A stretch of 64,000 nt of DNA from Spartobacteria bacterium. GTDB lineage: Bacteria > Verrucomicrobiota > Verrucomicrobiia > Chthoniobacterales > UBA10450. Positions 9,957 through 52,855 of the stretch are shown here, piece after piece. Under the pieces are notes generated by a model. The model saw nothing but the letters and a program-made list of their open reading frames with translations, did no database searches and was not told where the DNA came from. How positions within the stretch are numbered: position 1 is the first letter of the stretch; the number at the start of each line of letters is the position of its first letter. Location of the stretch: contig PNAA01000024.1 in assembly GCA_003169975.1 (NCBI GenBank), positions 223,273 to 287,272 of the forward strand. The letters run 5' to 3'. Position numbers and translations under genes: made by a program.

Positions 9957-10451
9957 TTAGCCTAACGGAATTTCCTCAAACTCGCCCCGTTCGCGATTCT
10001 TGCGGCAGCGGTCCCACGGGAAGCATTTGCCGTTCATCGCGATGTAAACTCCGGCCGGCAGCACCTGCACGAACGAAAGCGCGCTGCCGAGGTTGAAGAG
10101 GCCGTCCGAGCTGCCGAACGCCCAGGGAATCATCGCACCAGTGAGCACGACGGTCTTGGCCGTGACCGCGCGCGCGATCGCGGCCGCGGTGTCCGTCATC
10201 GTGTCGGTGCCGTGGGTAATCACAATGCGATCCTCCTCGGCTTGCAGGCAGTTTTGCACGATGAGGGCGCGATCGGCGTCCGTCATTTCCAGGCTATCGA
10301 CCATCATCACCGTGCGGACGCTTACCGGCACGCGCGAACGCCCTCGCTGGAGCATCTCCGCCAGATGAGTGTCCTTAAAGTAGAGCTGACCGGTGCGTTC
10401 GTTGTATTCTTTATCGAAGGTGCCGCCGGTGACGAGGATTCGAATGGCCAT
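9957..10451 (-). CDS. Short type I asparaginase-domain protein
   Basis: 164 residues from the ATG at 10451 (a TTG three codons upstream is an alternative). It holds only the N-terminal catalytic domain of an L-asparaginase: LVTGGTFDKEYNERTG with the nucleophilic Thr11, ITHGTDTMTDTA with the second Thr-Asp pair, and TAKTVVLTGAM with the conserved Lys. The C-terminal domain of classical ~330-residue enzymes is absent, yet the sequence is undamaged, so it belongs to the known class of single-domain asparaginase-like proteins. It is followed after 4 bases by trhO. Confidence 0.85.
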   Translation of the reverse strand: MAIRILVTGGTFDKEYNERTGQLYFKDTHLAEMLQRGRSRVPVSVRTVMMVDSLEMTDADRALIVQNCLQAEEDRIVITHGTDTMTDTAAAIARAVTAKTVVLTGAMIPWAFGSSDGLFNLGSALSFVQVLPAGVYIAMNGKCFPWDRCRKNRERGEFEEIPLG

Positions 10452-46380: not shown

Positions 46381-47496
46381 CTACGACTTCTCGAACGCTT
46401 CCTTATTCACAACGTAGGGCATCCTAGTCGGGTCGCCATCGTAGTTCCCCTCCAGCACGTCGATCACGGCTTGGACAGTGCGCCCAGCCATCCCTTTGTC
46501 GGGATCGACCGAGAGCCGCGTGATCTGCGCGCCGCTCGCGAAATGATGGAACAGCCGTGTGCGGTCGGCGATCTCTGGATCGAGGAGCGGCGAATCCGGC
46601 GGCAACGGCTCCTTTTCAAAAACATCGAGCGCTGCCCCGGCAATGACTTTATCTTTCAGCGCCTGCGCGAGGGCCTTCTCATCCACGACCGGGCCGCGTG
46701 AAGTATTCACCAGGTAGGCCGTCGGCTTCATGAGCTTGAGCGTCTTCTCGTTGATGAAGTGGTAGGTCGGTTTGTCGGTTTCGATCTCGAGCAACAGCGG
46801 CACGTGGATGCTGACGTAATCCGCGCCACTGAGTGCCTCCTCGAGCTCAACGTACTTGATCCAGGTCCTTTCCTTCTGAATTCCCGTGGCGTGGCGCAGG
46901 TCCATCACTTCCTGAATGGCAGCGATATACTGGTGGTTCTGATACGCCGGGTCGTAGCACAGGATGTTCATGTCGAACCCCGAGCACTTCTTGATCATCG
47001 CGAGGCCGATGCGTCCGGTGCCGATAATGGCAATGGTCTTTCCCGTGACCTCGTCACCGAGGAAGGGCAGGAAGGGATGCCACGACGGCCACTTCTGCTC
47101 CCGCACCAGGCGTTCACTCGCATACATCTTGCGCGCCAGCATGCCGAGCATGAAAAAACCAAACTCGGCGGTCGCTTCGGTCAGCACGTCTGCGGTGTTC
47201 GTGAATGGGATCTTGTATTTGTTGGCGTCGGCCCGGTTGATGTTATCGAAGCCGACGGCGATCTGCGCCACGATCTTGAGCGAGCCCTTCCCTGCTTCGA
47301 AGATCTCGGCGTCGATCGGATCGCGCAGCGTTGTGATCAATCCGTCGATGCCGCTCTTCACTTTTTCGATGATCAATTTTTTCGGCGGCGCCTCCGGGCC
47401 TTGGAAAACTTCGAGCTCGTAACCGCGTTCGCGCAGACGGTTCTCGGCCGGATCGCCGATGCGGGAGGTGGCAAAGATTCGTTTCTTGTCGGTCAT
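46381..47496 (-). CDS. D-isomer-specific 2-hydroxyacid dehydrogenase
   Basis: 371 residues, the complete gene. The NAD Rossmann motif is KTIAIIGTGRIGLAMIKK (~152-169). Catalytic Arg is in LKIVAQIAVGFDNINR / NTSRGPVVDEKAL region, Glu in LDVFEKEPLPPDSPLL and His in LFHHFASGAQ. An insert (QYIAAIQEVMDLRHATG) lengthens the protein relative to ~320-residue relatives. It likely interconverts a 2-oxoacid and a D-2-hydroxyacid (glyoxylate, hydroxypyruvate or similar). Its first ~30 codons are repeated in two other places to the right (48130-48250 and 50275-50332). Confidence 0.9.
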   Translation of the reverse strand: MTDKKRIFATSRIGDPAENRLRERGYELEVFQGPEAPPKKLIIEKVKSGIDGLITTLRDPIDAEIFEAGKGSLKIVAQIAVGFDNINRADANKYKIPFTNTADVLTEATAEFGFFMLGMLARKMYASERLVREQKWPSWHPFLPFLGDEVTGKTIAIIGTGRIGLAMIKKCSGFDMNILCYDPAYQNHQYIAAIQEVMDLRHATGIQKERTWIKYVELEEALSGADYVSIHVPLLLEIETDKPTYHFINEKTLKLMKPTAYLVNTSRGPVVDEKALAQALKDKVIAGAALDVFEKEPLPPDSPLLDPEIADRTRLFHHFASGAQITRLSVDPDKGMAGRTVQAVIDVLEGNYDGDPTRMPYVVNKEAFEKS

Positions 47497-47572: not shown

Positions 47573-47863
47573 TCAGAACCGCGGCGAACGACGAGCGCCG
47601 TGCCAAAAGTGGAGGATATTCACTACACCTCGCGCCTCGTCGCATGTGTAGAAAATCAGGAAGGGCGGCAGCGGCATTTTCCGAATCCCGCGCTTCTGGT
47701 CGTGAAACGCAAATCGCTGCGGCAGCGTCGCCAAACTTAGTGCGTGCGCGACTAGCTTGTTACCTAAACGAATCGCCGCGTCCGAATCATCCTGCGCCAC
47801 AAACTCGACGATCTCCTTAAGATCAGCGATCGCGCTTTCCGCGATCAGGACTTTGAAGTCCAT
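47573..47863 (-). CDS. RelE/ParE-family toxin
   Basis: 96 residues. VLIAESAIADLKEIVEFVAQ is the ParE/RelE helical hairpin, and FAFHDQKRGIRKMPLPPFLI then YTCDEARGVVNILHFWHGAR gives the last sheet ending in the family W/R-H-x-x-R. It overlaps the 3' end of the antitoxin gene by 19 bases, as in many type II modules with antitoxin first. Target (ribosome-bound mRNA or gyrase) is not predictable. Confidence 0.85.
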   Translation of the reverse strand: MDFKVLIAESAIADLKEIVEFVAQDDSDAAIRLGNKLVAHALSLATLPQRFAFHDQKRGIRKMPLPPFLIFYTCDEARGVVNILHFWHGARRSPRF

Positions 47864-48075
47864 CGCGGAATCATCGATTTCACTTCCTCAATCGGCCGCA
47901 CGCGACCCGCTTCGACATCGGCCAAGCCGCGCTCCAGAGAGCGTTCCAGTTCTTTTTCATCCGGCTCGGTCATCGCGAACAGTTCGGCCGCGAGAAGAGC
48001 CTTGTCACGTGCGTTCAGATGTCCGATTGCCGTCTTAATTTCTTGCAGCGTGCTCACGTCGTAAATGTTTATCAC
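47845..48075 (-). CDS. Antitoxin of the RelE/ParE-type module
   Basis: 76 residues, acidic, directly upstream of and overlapping the toxin. IKTAIGHLNARDKALLAAEL is a helix with leucine spacing, and the C-terminal DVEAGRVRPIEEVKSMIPRW is the usual toxin-neutralising tail with the DVxAGRVxPxEEV pattern seen in addiction-module components. No obvious DNA-binding fold is recognised. The module lies between two copies of the dehydrogenase 5' end. Confidence 0.8.
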   Translation of the reverse strand: MINIYDVSTLQEIKTAIGHLNARDKALLAAELFAMTEPDEKELERSLERGLADVEAGRVRPIEEVKSMIPRWTSKS

Positions 48076-48325
48076 AATGCGCAGAAAACGCGAGCCGCGT
48101 TATACGTGGCGAGCAGGCACGCGGAGCGGCGGCGCTTCGGGGGCCCTGGAAGACCTCGAGGTCGTAACCGCGCTCGCGAAGACGGTTCTCGGCAGGATCG
48201 CCGATGCGGGAGGTGGCAAAGATGCGAAAGCGTTTGTTGTCGATCACTTCTCTTTCTGCCGATAGAAGGGCTTTGAGGTTGCCCTCGCAATACTCTGTCA
48301 CGTCAATCTTGCGCTTGAAAAGCAT
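48035..48325 (-). pseudogene. Chimera: start of a cassette gene fused to a dehydrogenase 5' fragment
   Basis: The frame opens MLFKRKIDVTEYCEGNLKAL, 11 bases after the GTTAGAC core of the attC-like site at 48337. After ~27 codons it switches to KRFRIFATSRIGDPAENRLR, the N-terminus of the dehydrogenase, which then breaks off near GYDLEVFQGP. So a fourth cassette gene lost its 3' part and was joined to copy 2 of the dehydrogenase start. Confidence 0.7.
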
Positions 48326-48336
48326 CGGAGTTTTAG

Positions 48337-48443
48337 GTCTAACGAGAACAAGATCAGTTGCGCCGGGCGAGGGTGCGCGTTGCTGCGGGTTGAACGGTTT
48401 TAGTCATCTGAAAGCCGAATAGTACCACGGCCCGGCGTTAGCT
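48337..48443 (-). other. attC-like recombination site 1
   Basis: 107 bp, ends GTCTAAC and GTTAGCT on the plus strand, so minus-strand reading is AGCTAAC...GTTAGAC. Inner arms GCCGGGC and GCCCGGC can pair. The next minus-strand ORF starts 11 bases after the GTTAGAC core. Very similar to site 2 (same length). Confidence 0.6.
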
Positions 48444-48942
48444 GCATCATTTGGTTGGACTTTTCGTCCTCCTCTAGAAAGGATTGTCCATACCACAGCA
48501 TGTCAAAGTGACCGTCTTCAGAACACTGGCGCTCGGGGTGAACTTCTACCAATTCAAATGTCTCCTGATCCTCACCGTATCGGGGGAACTCCGTCCAGTG
48601 GAGTGTCTGCCGCCAAACGGTGTCTCCGTACCGCTGGACATATAGATCCTTTACCAGCCGCGCGCGCAGCCATGGATTGTGCCCACAGCGAATGTAGCCA
48701 TCCTCCTCTCGCAGCCAGTTGGATTGGTGGCGAGAAAAGCTGTAGCCGATCTTTTCGGAAAAAGTCAGCATTGACTCGGAAGTAAAAAGGACTGTTAGAA
48801 AGGACTTGATCGTTTGCGAACTGTACTGCGGTCTCAGAATTGCTACGATACGTGGTCGATTCAGGTCGGCCAAATAGTCATCGCGCGAAGACTCCCAGGT
48901 GATAAGCCACGATTGTTTCTTTCTTAGGTTGGTATCGCTCAC
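48400..48942 (-). CDS. Cassette ORF 1, hypothetical protein
   Basis: 180 residues from the GTG at 48942, which lies only 3 bases after the GTTAGGC core of attC-like site 2; an upstream start at 48972 would run inside that site. The protein (SDTNLRKKQSWLITWESSRD, YADLNRPRIVAILRPQ-like and WHWTEFPRYGEDQETFEL regions) is Trp/Tyr-rich and not recognised. Its last ~14 codons lie in attC-like site 1. Base composition is visibly lower in G+C than the flanking genes, as expected for a foreign cassette. Confidence 0.6.
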   Translation of the reverse strand: MSDTNLRKKQSWLITWESSRDDYLADLNRPRIVAILRPQYSSQTIKSFLTVLFTSESMLTFSEKIGYSFSRHQSNWLREEDGYIRCGHNPWLRARLVKDLYVQRYGDTVWRQTLHWTEFPRYGEDQETFELVEVHPERQCSEDGHFDMLWYGQSFLEEDEKSNQMMQLTPGRGTIRLSDD

Positions 48943-48945
48943 GAA

Positions 48946-49052
48946 GCCTAACGAGAACAAGATCAGTTGCACCGGGAGACGGTGCGCGTGGCTGCGGGTT
49001 GAAGGATTTTAATCATATGAAAGCTGGGTAGTACGACGGCTCGCCGTTAGCC
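48946..49052 (-). other. attC-like recombination site 2
   Basis: 107 bp with GCCTAAC at one end and GTTAGCC at the other (plus strand). It shares long blocks with site 1, such as AACGAGAACAAGATCAGTTG and GGCTGCGGGTTGAA. It separates cassette ORFs 1 and 2. Confidence 0.6.
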
Positions 49053-49069
49053 GGAGCGCATGGTCAGGC

Positions 49070-49549
49070 TTAGTTGCCATTCTGAGACGAAGATGGAGGC
49101 CGTGAACCAGTCGCACCGGTGCGATATACGGCGGCCGGGTTTTGGTCCGCGATCCAACCGATAATCTTGGCGTGTCCCCACTGCATGAAAGTGGAAAGCG
49201 CAATCAGGAAAACAATATTGAAAATAAACTGTTCAACTGCTCTGCCATTAGAACTTGCCGCTGACTCTTTCAAATAAATGCTCGGCGTGTTTTTGATTGC
49301 TGCCCACCAAAGCCAACCCGGCATGAGCAGCGAGAATGGCCAGATGAACAAGAAAGCCACGAATCCCAACCATCCCCAAGCTGCCCTCATGACCTTGACG
49401 TAAGCGAGTGTCTGGATGCCACCCTGAAAGAACGCTCCGACAGTGCCAGCCGCCAGAAGCAAAAATACGGGTATTTTGATTGCGGATCCTGCGCCGCGTG
49501 TAAACCACCAAACGATGGGTTTCGGCTTTGTGTCGGACGCAGTGGCCAT
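49070..49549 (-). CDS. Cassette ORF 2, membrane protein
   Basis: 159 residues from the ATG at 49549, about 20 bases after the core of attC-like site 3. Three or four hydrophobic segments are clear: IKIPVFLLLAAGTVGAFFQ, WGWLGFVAFLFIWPFSLLM and FIFNIVFLIALSTFMQW. It is a small inner-membrane protein of unknown function. The longer frame from 49627 starts within the recombination site. Not related to its neighbours. Confidence 0.6.
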   Translation of the reverse strand: MATASDTKPKPIVWWFTRGAGSAIKIPVFLLLAAGTVGAFFQGGIQTLAYVKVMRAAWGWLGFVAFLFIWPFSLLMPGWLWWAAIKNTPSIYLKESAASSNGRAVEQFIFNIVFLIALSTFMQWGHAKIIGWIADQNPAAVYRTGATGSRPPSSSQNGN

Positions 49550-49569
49550 AATAGTGCATGCGATAGTAA

Positions 49570-49675
49570 GGCTAACGAGACGGAGCTGAGCTAGCGCTGG
49601 CGGAAGCGAGCGCCGCAAGATCGGCAATCTGTTTCATTAATTCAAACTGGTCATCGCAACGGCCAACGGTTAGCT
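49570..49675 (-). other. attC-like recombination site 3
   Basis: 106 bp with GGCTAAC and GTTAGCT ends (plus strand); its inside differs from sites 1 and 2 and includes the hairpin GCGCTGGCGGAAGCGAGCGC. A second GTTAGGC follows at 49684-49690. It lies between cassette ORFs 2 and 3. Confidence 0.5.
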
Positions 49676-49686
49676 GCCTCGTCCGG

Positions 49687-50040
49687 TTAGGCCTCCGGCG
49701 TCGCTTCGGGCTGATTGTCTGGTGTCAAAGTTCCGTGGTATTCAAAATCGTGCTCTGCGTCTTCGGACGCCTTCCGAAGATGCTCGATCTGGCGAGATGA
49801 AAGGTTAAAAAGAATGTCGGTATGGACGTCGTGACTGTCGTGACGAGTGAACACGAGATTGATGGACAGCAGGCCGCCAGGATTCTGCAGGACGCGGATC
49901 TTACCTGTGCCGTCGTAGCTCGCTCCGGAGCGCGTGACGAAATCCGCAAACACGGTCTTGTCCTTGAGCTCGTCGTAGCCGAAGGGCGATTTCAGCCAGC
50001 GTGTTAGCAGCCGCTCTCGTCGTTCGGGTTTCGGTGTCAT
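49687..50040 (-). CDS. Cassette ORF 3, hypothetical protein
   Basis: 117 residues from the ATG at 50040, 7 bases after a GTTAGAC core (50048-50054). The protein reads RRERLLTRWLKSPFGYDELK, TGKIRVLQNPGGLLSINLVF and LFNLSSRQIEHLRKASEDAE, a compact mixed alpha/beta protein with an acidic tail. No family recognised. It is the first cassette of the array in the direction of transcription. Confidence 0.6.
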   Translation of the reverse strand: MTPKPERRERLLTRWLKSPFGYDELKDKTVFADFVTRSGASYDGTGKIRVLQNPGGLLSINLVFTRHDSHDVHTDILFNLSSRQIEHLRKASEDAEHDFEYHGTLTPDNQPEATPEA

Positions 50041-50047
50041 TAATGAG

Positions 50048-50054
50048 GTCTAAC
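50048..50054 (-). other. Isolated GTTAGAC core before the first cassette
   Basis: Plus-strand GTCTAAC, read GTTAGAC on the minus strand. In an integron this position would be the attI site or the left half of another attC. No partner half was found in the next 200 bases. Confidence 0.4.
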
Positions 50055-50101
50055 GACTCGTAGATCGAATAAGTCGGCAATTAAAGGCAGAATAATTCAG
50101 C

Positions 50102-50332
50102 TTAACTCGGCTCGTCGCGAGAAAAACGCCCGGAAATAGGAGAATCACGGCGCGAGTATTTAACGCTTGTCGTTGCGGAGGCAAGCACAATTTTATCCCC
50201 TGCAAATGTCCACCAAGCCGAGTGATCCGCGATTAATAAGACGAAATCTGACTGGCCGCGCGCCTGCGTCGCCTCGGCAGGATCGCCGATGCGGGAAGTG
50301 GCAAAGACGCGGAAGCGTTTCTTGTCGGTCAT
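50102..50332 (-). pseudogene. Dehydrogenase 5' fragment (copy 3) with foreign tail
   Basis: Begins MTDKKRFRVFATSRIGDPAE, the exact start of the 2-hydroxyacid dehydrogenase, then departs into unrelated sequence (QSDFVLLIADHSAWWTFAG). The bases upstream of the ATG also match those upstream of the intact gene (for example TGGCTATTGCCTTG at ~50460 and ~47531), so the promoter region was copied too. Confidence 0.75.
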
Positions 50333-50551: not shown

Positions 50552-51277
50552 TCACGCATTGGCCGGCGCGGCGTTCGGATCAGTGGGAGGCGTATCAAAT
50601 CCGGTCAAACGTTTATACAACGGCTGCAATTCAGGAATATCGTTGCCAATCGCGGCCAATGTATTCAGAGCCACGAATGCAGACATGGCCACGGTCCGAG
50701 TATCTTCTGGATCGGTCGTCTCATCCAATAAGTCACTCGTCGCGCGAAAATGTCCGTGAGTGTATTGAGAATACGTCCGGTAATGTGAGTTATAGTAAGG
50801 CATCATCTGCGCGACACCAGCGGCGCCAGCGATTCCGAGTTCGTGATAAGAAAACTGGTAGTCAGGAAATTCCTTTTGGAATTGAGCGTCAATTTCATCC
50901 CAGCGTCGCTTAGACTCCTGCTCGTCGTACGGCCGTCCCGAAATAGTTGCTGCTTCTCGCAGAAGTTTTTGATCTTCCGCGTGATCCTTTGCCGCAATCT
51001 CGTAGAGCTTATCAGGGTTGCGCCTCACTGCCTCCAAGCGAAACATTGTTTCGATGGCAGGACGAACGAGCAACTTGGAACAGTAAGTGTGGCCCAATGC
51101 TCGCAATGATATGAAACCGTCTGCAGCACGGAAAATATGTTTTACAGAATGAATCCTATAACGATTTAGCATATCTCCTTGCGGTTGCCCGGCCAACAAA
51201 TTGAGAGCACTGCCGAGAGCCTTCACGACATCGCGAAGCAACTCGAGCGACTGGTTCTCGCATTTCTCGTTTTGCAT
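50552..51277 (-). CDS. DUF5677-like protein
   Basis: 241 residues from the ATG at 51277. All-helical: ENQSLELLRDVVKALGSALN, RAADGFISLRALGHTYCSKL, LVRPAIETMFRLEAVRRNPD and YSQYTHGHFRATSDLL. The pattern of an RPAIE core followed later by a Y-x-H-GHF motif fits the DUF5677/HEPN-like group of unknown function. It lies 36 bases downstream of the aminotransferase gene on the same strand, so they may be co-transcribed, and just upstream of dehydrogenase copy 3. Confidence 0.6.
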   Translation of the reverse strand: MQNEKCENQSLELLRDVVKALGSALNLLAGQPQGDMLNRYRIHSVKHIFRAADGFISLRALGHTYCSKLLVRPAIETMFRLEAVRRNPDKLYEIAAKDHAEDQKLLREAATISGRPYDEQESKRRWDEIDAQFQKEFPDYQFSYHELGIAGAAGVAQMMPYYNSHYRTYSQYTHGHFRATSDLLDETTDPEDTRTVAMSAFVALNTLAAIGNDIPELQPLYKRLTGFDTPPTDPNAAPANA

Positions 51278-51312: not shown

Positions 51313-52503
51313 CTACAAATTCTTCGTCGTCCAGGCGCCGACGCGATCCAGCGCCTTCTCGATGTTCTCGATCGAGTTGGCCACGCTGAAACGCAGATAG
51401 CCCTCGCCGAAGTCGCCAAAAGCGGTCCCTGAGAGCGCGGCGACGCCGGCGTCCTCGAGCAACGTGTCGGCCAGTTTCTTCGATGGCCATCCGGTCTCCC
51501 TGATGTTTGGGAAAACGTAGAACGCGCCCTTGGGCAGGCGGCAGGAGAAACCCTTGATGCTATTAAGCCCGGCGACCATCACGTCGCGCCGTTTCTTGAA
51601 CTCGGCGCACATTTCCTCGACCGCGCCCTGCGGCCCGCGGAGCGCCTCGATGCCGGCGACCTGCGTGAAGCTGGCGGTGCAGGAATTGGAGTTAGTCATG
51701 AGGCGGGCGACATGCGTCGCCAGGTCGGCGCGCATCACGCCGTAGCCCATCCGCCAGCCGGTCATGGCATAAGTCTTGGAGAAACCGTCGAGCAGGATAC
51801 AACGCTCCTGCATGCCGTCCAACGACATGATGGAATGATGCTCGCCTTCGAAAATAAGGCGACTGTAGATCTCGTCGGTCAGCACCATGATGTTGCGATC
51901 GCCGATCGCGCGCGCGATGCCCTTCAGGTCCTCCTTCTCGAGCACGCCACCAGTTGGGTTCTGCGGCGAATTCAGGATGATGAGCTTGGTGCGATCGTTG
52001 ATCAGCTCGGCGAGTTGGTCGACGTCGAACCGGAAATCCATTTCCTCGCGCAACTGGATCGGGACGGCTTTCGCGTCAAGGAACTCGATCATCGACTCGT
52101 AAATGGGGAATCCGGGATTGGGATAGATGACCTCATCCCCTTCTTCCACCAGCGCGAGGATGGTGAAAAAGATGATTGGCTTACCGCCGGGGACAACAAC
52201 CACTTCTTCGGCTGTTGCCGTGATCCCGCGCGTCTCACTCACATATTGCGCGATCGTTTCGCGCAGTTGCGGCATCCCGGCCGAAGGCCCGTAGTGGGTG
52301 AAGCTTTTGTGCAGGGCATCGCAGGCCGCCTCGATGATGTTGCCCGGCGTATCGAAATCGGGCTCCCCGATCTCGAGATGGACGATATCGCGACCCTTGG
52401 CCTCCAGTGCGCGCGCCTTCACCAGCACCTCGAAAGCGGTCTCGGTGCCGAGACGCGCCATGCGACCGGCGAGACGGAGTTCACGCTGTGCAGCTTTCGT
52501 CAT
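51313..52503 (-). CDS. Class I/II PLP-dependent aminotransferase (aspartate type)
   Basis: 396 residues from the ATG at 52503. Family marks: IVHLEIGEPDFDTPGNI, FTHYGPSAGMPQLRETIAQY, LNSPQNPTGGVLEKEDL (Asn binding PLP), LTDEIYSRLIFEG (Asp and Tyr), LLDGFSKTYAMTGWRMGY with the Schiff-base Lys, and YLRFSVANSIENI with the carboxylate-binding Arg. A fold-type I enzyme close to AspC/aromatic aminotransferases; exact amino donor not assigned. Cytoplasmic. Confidence 0.93.
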   Translation of the reverse strand: MTKAAQRELRLAGRMARLGTETAFEVLVKARALEAKGRDIVHLEIGEPDFDTPGNIIEAACDALHKSFTHYGPSAGMPQLRETIAQYVSETRGITATAEEVVVVPGGKPIIFFTILALVEEGDEVIYPNPGFPIYESMIEFLDAKAVPIQLREEMDFRFDVDQLAELINDRTKLIILNSPQNPTGGVLEKEDLKGIARAIGDRNIMVLTDEIYSRLIFEGEHHSIMSLDGMQERCILLDGFSKTYAMTGWRMGYGVMRADLATHVARLMTNSNSCTASFTQVAGIEALRGPQGAVEEMCAEFKKRRDVMVAGLNSIKGFSCRLPKGAFYVFPNIRETGWPSKKLADTLLEDAGVAALSGTAFGDFGEGYLRFSVANSIENIEKALDRVGAWTTKNL

Positions 52504-52855
52504 GACGGCAAAAGACTCCGCAAACTCATGCGTTTGTCCATCTGAAATTATTCCCAACGTGGGAGGCGCCTTCGCGCGGCAGCCCAAATCTCGGAATCAG
52601 GAACCCTGGAATTGTAGGGCAGGCGCATCGCCTGCCAGGCATGTTGACACGGATCACACGGATTGCACTGGCGGTGATAATGCAGGAACCGGGGATCAAC
52701 CAGGAGGCCAGGAACGGAGGAAGAACTAAGGTTCGCGCTCTCTCTATCATAGAACGGAGTCAATCAATTGAATCCGCTTGATCGCCGGCGGCGGAAACTC
52801 CGCAAAATATTATCTTGAATCTAGTTTTCGGCTTGAGGCATCTTACTATGATACG
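52504..52855. repeat. Intergenic with GTAGGGCAGGCG palindrome
   Basis: A perfect palindrome TAGGGCAGGCGCATCGCCTG with CC sits at 52612-52640 after GGAATTG; the same element occurs at 53625-53652. Around it are short decayed repeats seen elsewhere (GGAATCAGGAA, ACACGGATCACACGGATT, AGGAGGCCAGGAA). Confidence 0.75.

Follow-up and report, generated by a model that had tools for sequence, protein, structure and literature searches.

The array and its surroundings

The window, by which we mean the whole 64-kb stretch of DNA that was analysed, carries a cluster of short genes between an aminotransferase gene (51313-52587) and a 2-hydroxyacid dehydrogenase gene (46381-47496). Three small, unrelated minus-strand ORFs and the start of a fourth each follow a GTTAGRC/GTTAGCC core, as an earlier note on this sequence had recognised; the single ORF per site, the uniform direction and the lowered G+C content it described (0.53-0.54, as compared to 0.57-0.60 in the surroundings) hold as well. 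The annotated parts are as follows, with scores from the covariance model R2 described below.

50175..50190, plus strand: probable remnant of the 5' codons of a lost intI (EGKPK region); 14/16 match, suggestive only
50048..50115, minus strand: decayed attI, its G|TT crossover falling between 50054 and 50053 of the minus strand; covariance and nhmmer matches
49576..50053, minus strand: cassette 1, between the attI crossover and R' of s3
49687..50040, minus strand: ORF1 of cassette 1, 117 aa, unmatched in Pfam, NCBIfam and PADLOC
49570..49692, minus strand: attC s3, R'' GCCTAAC at 49692, R' GTTAGCC at 49576; R2 60.8 bits, E 1.1e-13
48952..49575, minus strand: cassette 2, from R' of s3 to R' of s2
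49070..49549, minus strand: ORF2 of cassette 2, 159 aa, hydrophobic by sequence, no confident family
48946..49069, minus strand: attC s2, R'' GCCTGAC at 49069, R' GTTAGGC at 48952; R2 92.8 bits, E 4.2e-22
48343..48951, minus strand: cassette 3, from R' of s2 to R' of s1
48400..48942, minus strand: ORF3 of cassette 3, with homologues elsewhere (see below)
48337..48460, minus strand: attC s1, R'' GTCCAAC at 48460, R' GTTAGAC at 48343; R2 109.6 bits, E 1.5e-26
48247..48342, minus strand: fourth cassette, ORF start MLFKRKIDVTEY..., truncated by a piece of the downstream gene

ORF3 likely starts at the GTG at 48942; the listed GTG at 48972 precedes the crossover. Searches of Pfam, NCBIfam and PADLOC returned no confident match for any of the three complete cassette ORFs, and ORF1 was found in no other genome among the 83 of the family. 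ORF3 has homologues in G063 (66%), in G078 and weakly in G059, and attC sites adjoin the homologues in G078 and in G063 (there weakly scored), which belong to other genera. Of ORF1 and ORF3, the two ORFs searched for across the family, only ORF3 showed cassette mobility in the sense of a homologous ORF beside another attC.

The flanking aminotransferase and dehydrogenase genes are neighbours without the window array in all 13 relatives examined, with roughly 60 to 1,100 bp between them. The cassette ORFs do not recur in a fixed chromosomal order in relatives; such an order was what the earlier note had named as telling against cassettes. An attC scan of this gap in the relatives returned a single site, belonging to one 570-bp cassette with a 66-nt attC that lies between the same two genes in G023 (L119:1204-1773) and is bounded by G|TT. 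It looks like a natural secondary-site insertion, or a hot spot; no empty allele of this insertion was seen.

The first 60-120 bp of the dehydrogenase gene are present three times at the locus: in the intact gene (46381-47496) and as 5' fragments bordering the array on one side at 50331-50273 and on the other from 48246 to about 48127, the fourth cassette abutting the latter fragment at a junction at 48246. Both fragments are closer to the gene of a relative (L030) than to the intact local copy. Since such fragments lie at both ends, the locus was rearranged, and a larger rearrangement brought or cut the array. Between array and dehydrogenase, a small gene pair (47573-48075) ends in a ParE/RelE-family toxin, and some relatives also carry small genes in the same gap. 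A low-G+C gene for a DUF5677 protein (50552-51274) lies between the aminotransferase and the attI and is missing there in the relatives compared.

The three sites are attC sites

The earlier note had given the sites as 106-107 bp long with YTAAC/GTTAG ends. While the sites are real, these versions folded into poor structures, which prompted a re-examination, and alignment of homologous sites placed the true R'' boxes 17-20 nt further 5'. The corrected minus-strand sites measure 123-124 nt, and the supposed 'CTAAC' end is in fact the L'' box, including the extrahelical A (the form in this family being GAGCTGACGG). A covariance model (R2) built from 55 attC sites outside the window returned exactly three matches in the 64 kb, those listed above, and nothing else up to E = 10, whereas an Rfam scan of 47.0-51.5 kb gave no match.

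The scored structure pairs R'' with R' and the two-part L'' with L', leaving two extrahelical positions. In the R/L stems, 87% of cells were paired over 13 sites and 89% over 55 sites, and 162 cells of the 55-site set had changed on both sides, indicating strong covariation; none of 500 shuffles did as well, and slid partners paired at 19-45%. Because the model used to fit the 55-site alignment had been trained on 13 sites, the three of the window among them, this count leans slightly towards the attC structure, the sequences themselves being independent. The two extrahelical positions (columns 18 and 25 of alignment A2) are unpaired and conserved (G in 49/55, A in 51/55), and the central spacer is asymmetric, at 5 and about 8 nt. 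Both checks proposed by the earlier note, covariance scoring and folding, thus support its reading of an attC cluster lacking an integrase.

The order of elements (R''-spacer-L''-variable end-L'-spacer-R') and the T at the second extrahelical position of the bottom strand are those of canonical attC sites such as VCR and attCaadA7 (PMC2727003). In contrast, the first extrahelical base on the bottom strand is C in 49 of the 55 sites of the genus, where known sites have almost only G; in assays, a G-to-C change at this base cost at most about threefold (PMC2727003). A QPAATRT reading, pointed out earlier, can indeed be made in the near-identical s1 and s2. It was rejected as a translated motif and is no evidence of a peptide: it sits in the variable terminal structure, conserved across the sites of this genome.

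A blastn search with one site against its own genome (4.47 Mb, 59 contigs) revealed 11 copies, some adjoining integron-integrase genes or their remnants on contigs C43, C46 and C18; sites of the same family also adjoin such a gene on C33. A first covariance model found about 27 attC matches in this genome and 14, 52, 86 and 1 in four congeners. Such likeness among the attC sites of one genome is also seen in the sedentary chromosomal integrons of Vibrio and Xanthomonas.

Integrases lie elsewhere in the genome

The array has no adjacent integron integrase, and the contig that holds the window (C5) has no tyrosine recombinase at all. The absence reported in the earlier note therefore extends to the contig, but not to the genome: the search for intI that it had suggested uncovered two full-length genes on other contigs (C33, 480 bits; C43, 441 bits; NCBIfam cut-off 265), a split copy on C30 and decayed copies on C55, C36, C46 and C18, that is, at least five split or decayed copies. 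The C33 IntI matches IntI4 of structure 2a3v at 1.5e-96, aligned through the catalytic region. Integron integrase matches above the cut-off occur in 33 of the 83 genomes of the family. Contigs often end beside intI or within arrays, as is to be expected since the sites are repeated. The named relatives are soil metagenome-assembled genomes (MAGs), titled 'Verrucomicrobia bacterium' or 'Chthoniobacterales bacterium'.

Some of the broken copies have features of their own. A similar short insert (GAATGGAGYAGCTGGGGGA...) interrupts the decayed intI of both C46 and C18 at roughly the same codon (L022:8643, L023:8845, L019 about 10116-10275), and a related insert sits at another place in the C30 gene; this insert is a small palindromic element breaking intI. 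In G038 (contig C1; L179:2301-2467), a miniature integrase remnant, with IntI residues 1-39 directly joined to 305-328, adjoins an attI and two attC sites.

A decayed attI, of a type with a covarying hairpin, heads the array

The earlier note had counted four cores as cassette starts. Three of them belong to attC sites, but the core at 50054 lacks an attC partner arm and is the end of a site that resembles the attI sites adjoining intI. A covariance model of 14 attI sites, from which the window site was left out (R3), matched it with 44.1 bits (E 3.2e-8 in the window, 2.2e-6 genome-wide), and nhmmer likewise matched it (E 1.4e-10) with an HMM of five further attI sites. The likeness spans 68 nt, hairpin region included, and the 37-nt spacing from TCTGCCTTTAATTGC to the crossover equals that at C18 and C29.

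When the attI sites of the family were placed by their crossover, without gaps, an inverted repeat became apparent whose centre lies at a fixed distance from that point. Its inner stem is 93% paired in 14 sites, with 26 cells changed on both sides over the whole structure; 0 of 500 shuffles were as good, and slid partners paired at 33-56%. This paired change fits a folded strand, though a two-fold protein site with halves changing together could also account for it. A terminator reading was set aside, several of the hairpins having no T-run. The attI model found matches in 75 of the 83 family genomes at E 0.01 and, at 1e-5, in 53 of 197 genomes sampled from the order, 49 of these 53 belonging to the family. 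A second attI type (CCGAAATAGGCGAA...TTTCGT...GTTAG) does not have this hairpin form and accompanies a second intI subfamily (C43, C30, C46); its loci are L018 near 7370, L019, L022, L152, L157 and L162.

In the window site, the hairpin is partly lost, its left side being changed, and ACGAGTC stands where others have ACTTCTC; the core GTTAGAC is kept. Given the altered hairpin and ACGAGTC, this attI may be dead. Further upstream, TTGTGCTTGCCTCCGC (50175..50190, plus strand) matches TTGGGCTTGCCTTCGC, from the first codons of C33 intI, at 14 of 16 positions and is as far from the crossover as its counterpart in the intact C33 integron. This stretch, too short to pass the leader HMM, is suggestive of a remnant of the first intI codons, and no further intI remnant was detected at the window locus.

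Cassettes differ at orthologous attI loci without intI

Three attI-headed arrays in this genome (on C5, C29 and C48) have no intI. Among 20 attI-model loci, mostly picked away from known intI, 17 had an attC downstream on the same strand (E below 0.001), and only 3 had a recognisable piece of intI within about 2.5 kb.

Five sets of orthologous intI-less loci were compared (G048/G067/G053; G066/G050/G073; G078/G082; G054/G062; G049/G052). Their upstream flanks are alike over roughly 500-700 bp in four sets and about 135 bp in the fifth. Each set contains one or more pairs whose alignment runs on for 4-8 bp beyond the G|TT crossover, after which similarity ceases and different cassettes follow; the G066-G073 alignment ends at -47, these two genomes also sharing the far flank (83% over 2.5 kb). 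For the G048/G067/G053, G078/G082 and G054/G062 sets, the attI sites are 92-97% identical, more than their flanks (71-90%); the attI values are 88% in G049/G052 and 58-73% in G066/G050/G073. All these attI values are to be read as raised, since the loci, all from MAGs, were chosen for good attI. No intI was found by tblastn in the five sets, and none of the strong integrase matches of the family lie on those contigs.

Because shared flank and attI give way to different cassettes at five intI-less loci, use of these attI in trans is suggested. As the simplest reading of these alignments, the ancestor at each of the five loci would already have been without intI, and the cassettes would since have been changed at attI by an IntI acting in trans. 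Allele exchange by homologous recombination would be another source of cassette differences at orthologous attI. A fixed left end of the intI-less attI units, at a G|TT inside intI, was considered as well. End points cluster near one place but spread (2-84, leader model); with relatedness among some of the loci and short remnants going undetected, we do not claim it.

Origin of the window array

We consider the window feature very probably to be the relic of a chromosomal integron, comprising an attI, three complete cassettes and a cut fourth, from which the adjacent intI has been deleted. IntI would have placed the cassettes here through recombination at G|TT between attI and the folded bottom strand of attC, before the neighbouring intI was lost by deletion. 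We infer rather than see this loss: it follows from the attI, since the 16-nt stretch is the only candidate remnant. The present array cannot mobilise itself. As its attC sites are of the same family as those of the complete integrons in this 59-contig genome, mobilisation in trans is possible, and IntI made elsewhere in the cell could excise or donate its cassettes.

A less likely, if still credible, course of events is that the attI-headed array arrived as a unit, or that the attI was already intI-less when the cassettes entered, forming an orphan platform served in trans. The arrays on C5, C29 and C48, the scarcity of intI at most of the sampled attI-headed loci of the family and the five orthologous loci that swap cassettes at the crossover all speak for it, as does the similarity to the intI leader, which ends near the same point in about ten loci; however, this clustering is partly detection bias and partly due to related loci. 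Relatives have no attI orthologous to that of the window locus, so that use in trans is not demonstrable there, and decay has gone further in its attI than in those with which it was compared.

That a distant IntI inserted the cassettes at a secondary chromosomal (attG-type) site, no complete integron ever having stood here, is improbable. Insertion at attG is already established (Loot et al. 2024, as cited in PMC12901181), and such an event is visible in the same intergenic region of G023 (L119:1204-1773). Yet, the head of the window array matches attI over 68 nt, hairpin region included, and is more than the minimal GTT that secondary sites offer. Finally, the idea that a chance or non-integron repeat family, such as REP-like palindromes, mimics attC draws on the sites being palindromic and repeated in the genome and is ruled out by their orientation, the one ORF per site, the R/L architecture with two extrahelical positions, the adjoining integron integrases and the cassettes that these sites delimit in other genera. 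The deleted integron remains our preferred reading.

Relation to known systems and implications

Clusters of attC sites lacking an integron integrase form the CALIN class of IntegronFinder (PMC9024848) and are seen as degraded integrons or off-target insertions (PMC9024848, PMC8618304); mobilisation in trans has been noted (PMC9668308, PMC12444791). With at least two attC sites bearing R/L inverted stems and GTTRRRY cores, one ORF each and no adjacent intI, the window array is a CALIN and as such of a known kind; it is not a complete integron, for which intI would stand beside attI and array and of which only the attI and the possible 16-nt leader remnant are present. Unlike a CALIN as usually understood, it begins with a recognisable attI, whose lineage-specific type bears a covarying hairpin. 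Cassettes outside an integron are likewise known from attG insertions, of which G023 provides one probable natural example at the same gene pair; the window array differs in beginning with an attI and not with a minimal GTT site. Inactivation of the integrase with retention of the array is known from Xanthomonas (PMC12444791). In contrast to the single locus of Vibrio and Xanthomonas, several platforms coexist in this genome, with at least seven intI loci, two of them intact, in addition to the intI-less attI.

Describing such arrays as little known in this group, as the earlier note did, is fair, although Verrucomicrobiota are already among the phyla with integrons (PMC8618304). Our literature searches, which scarcely covered subscription papers, returned no attI hairpin or orphan attI platform in this group, nor any suggestion that certain attI in this lineage are still used despite having no intI. 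Relative to the known kind of CALIN, the orphan attI platform would be new.

With about even confidence, we propose that the soil Verrucomicrobiota of this family possess a distributed integron: many orphan attI sites, each marked by a covarying hairpin some 20-50 nt away from the crossover, would be scattered over the chromosome and would persist and stay in use on the time scale of species. One or a few IntI would load them in trans, and the window array would be a decaying member. In the usual model, an integron is a single platform equipped with an integrase, and arrays lacking one are what is left after degradation. Should attI sites remain conserved and go on exchanging cassettes with no intI linked to them, such arrays would be live docking sites. 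The attI hairpin provides a search model for orphan platforms, which would appear as nothing more than CALINs in the output of tools based on intI and attC. If true, a genome could have many points of cassette expression, with one enzyme serving all of them.
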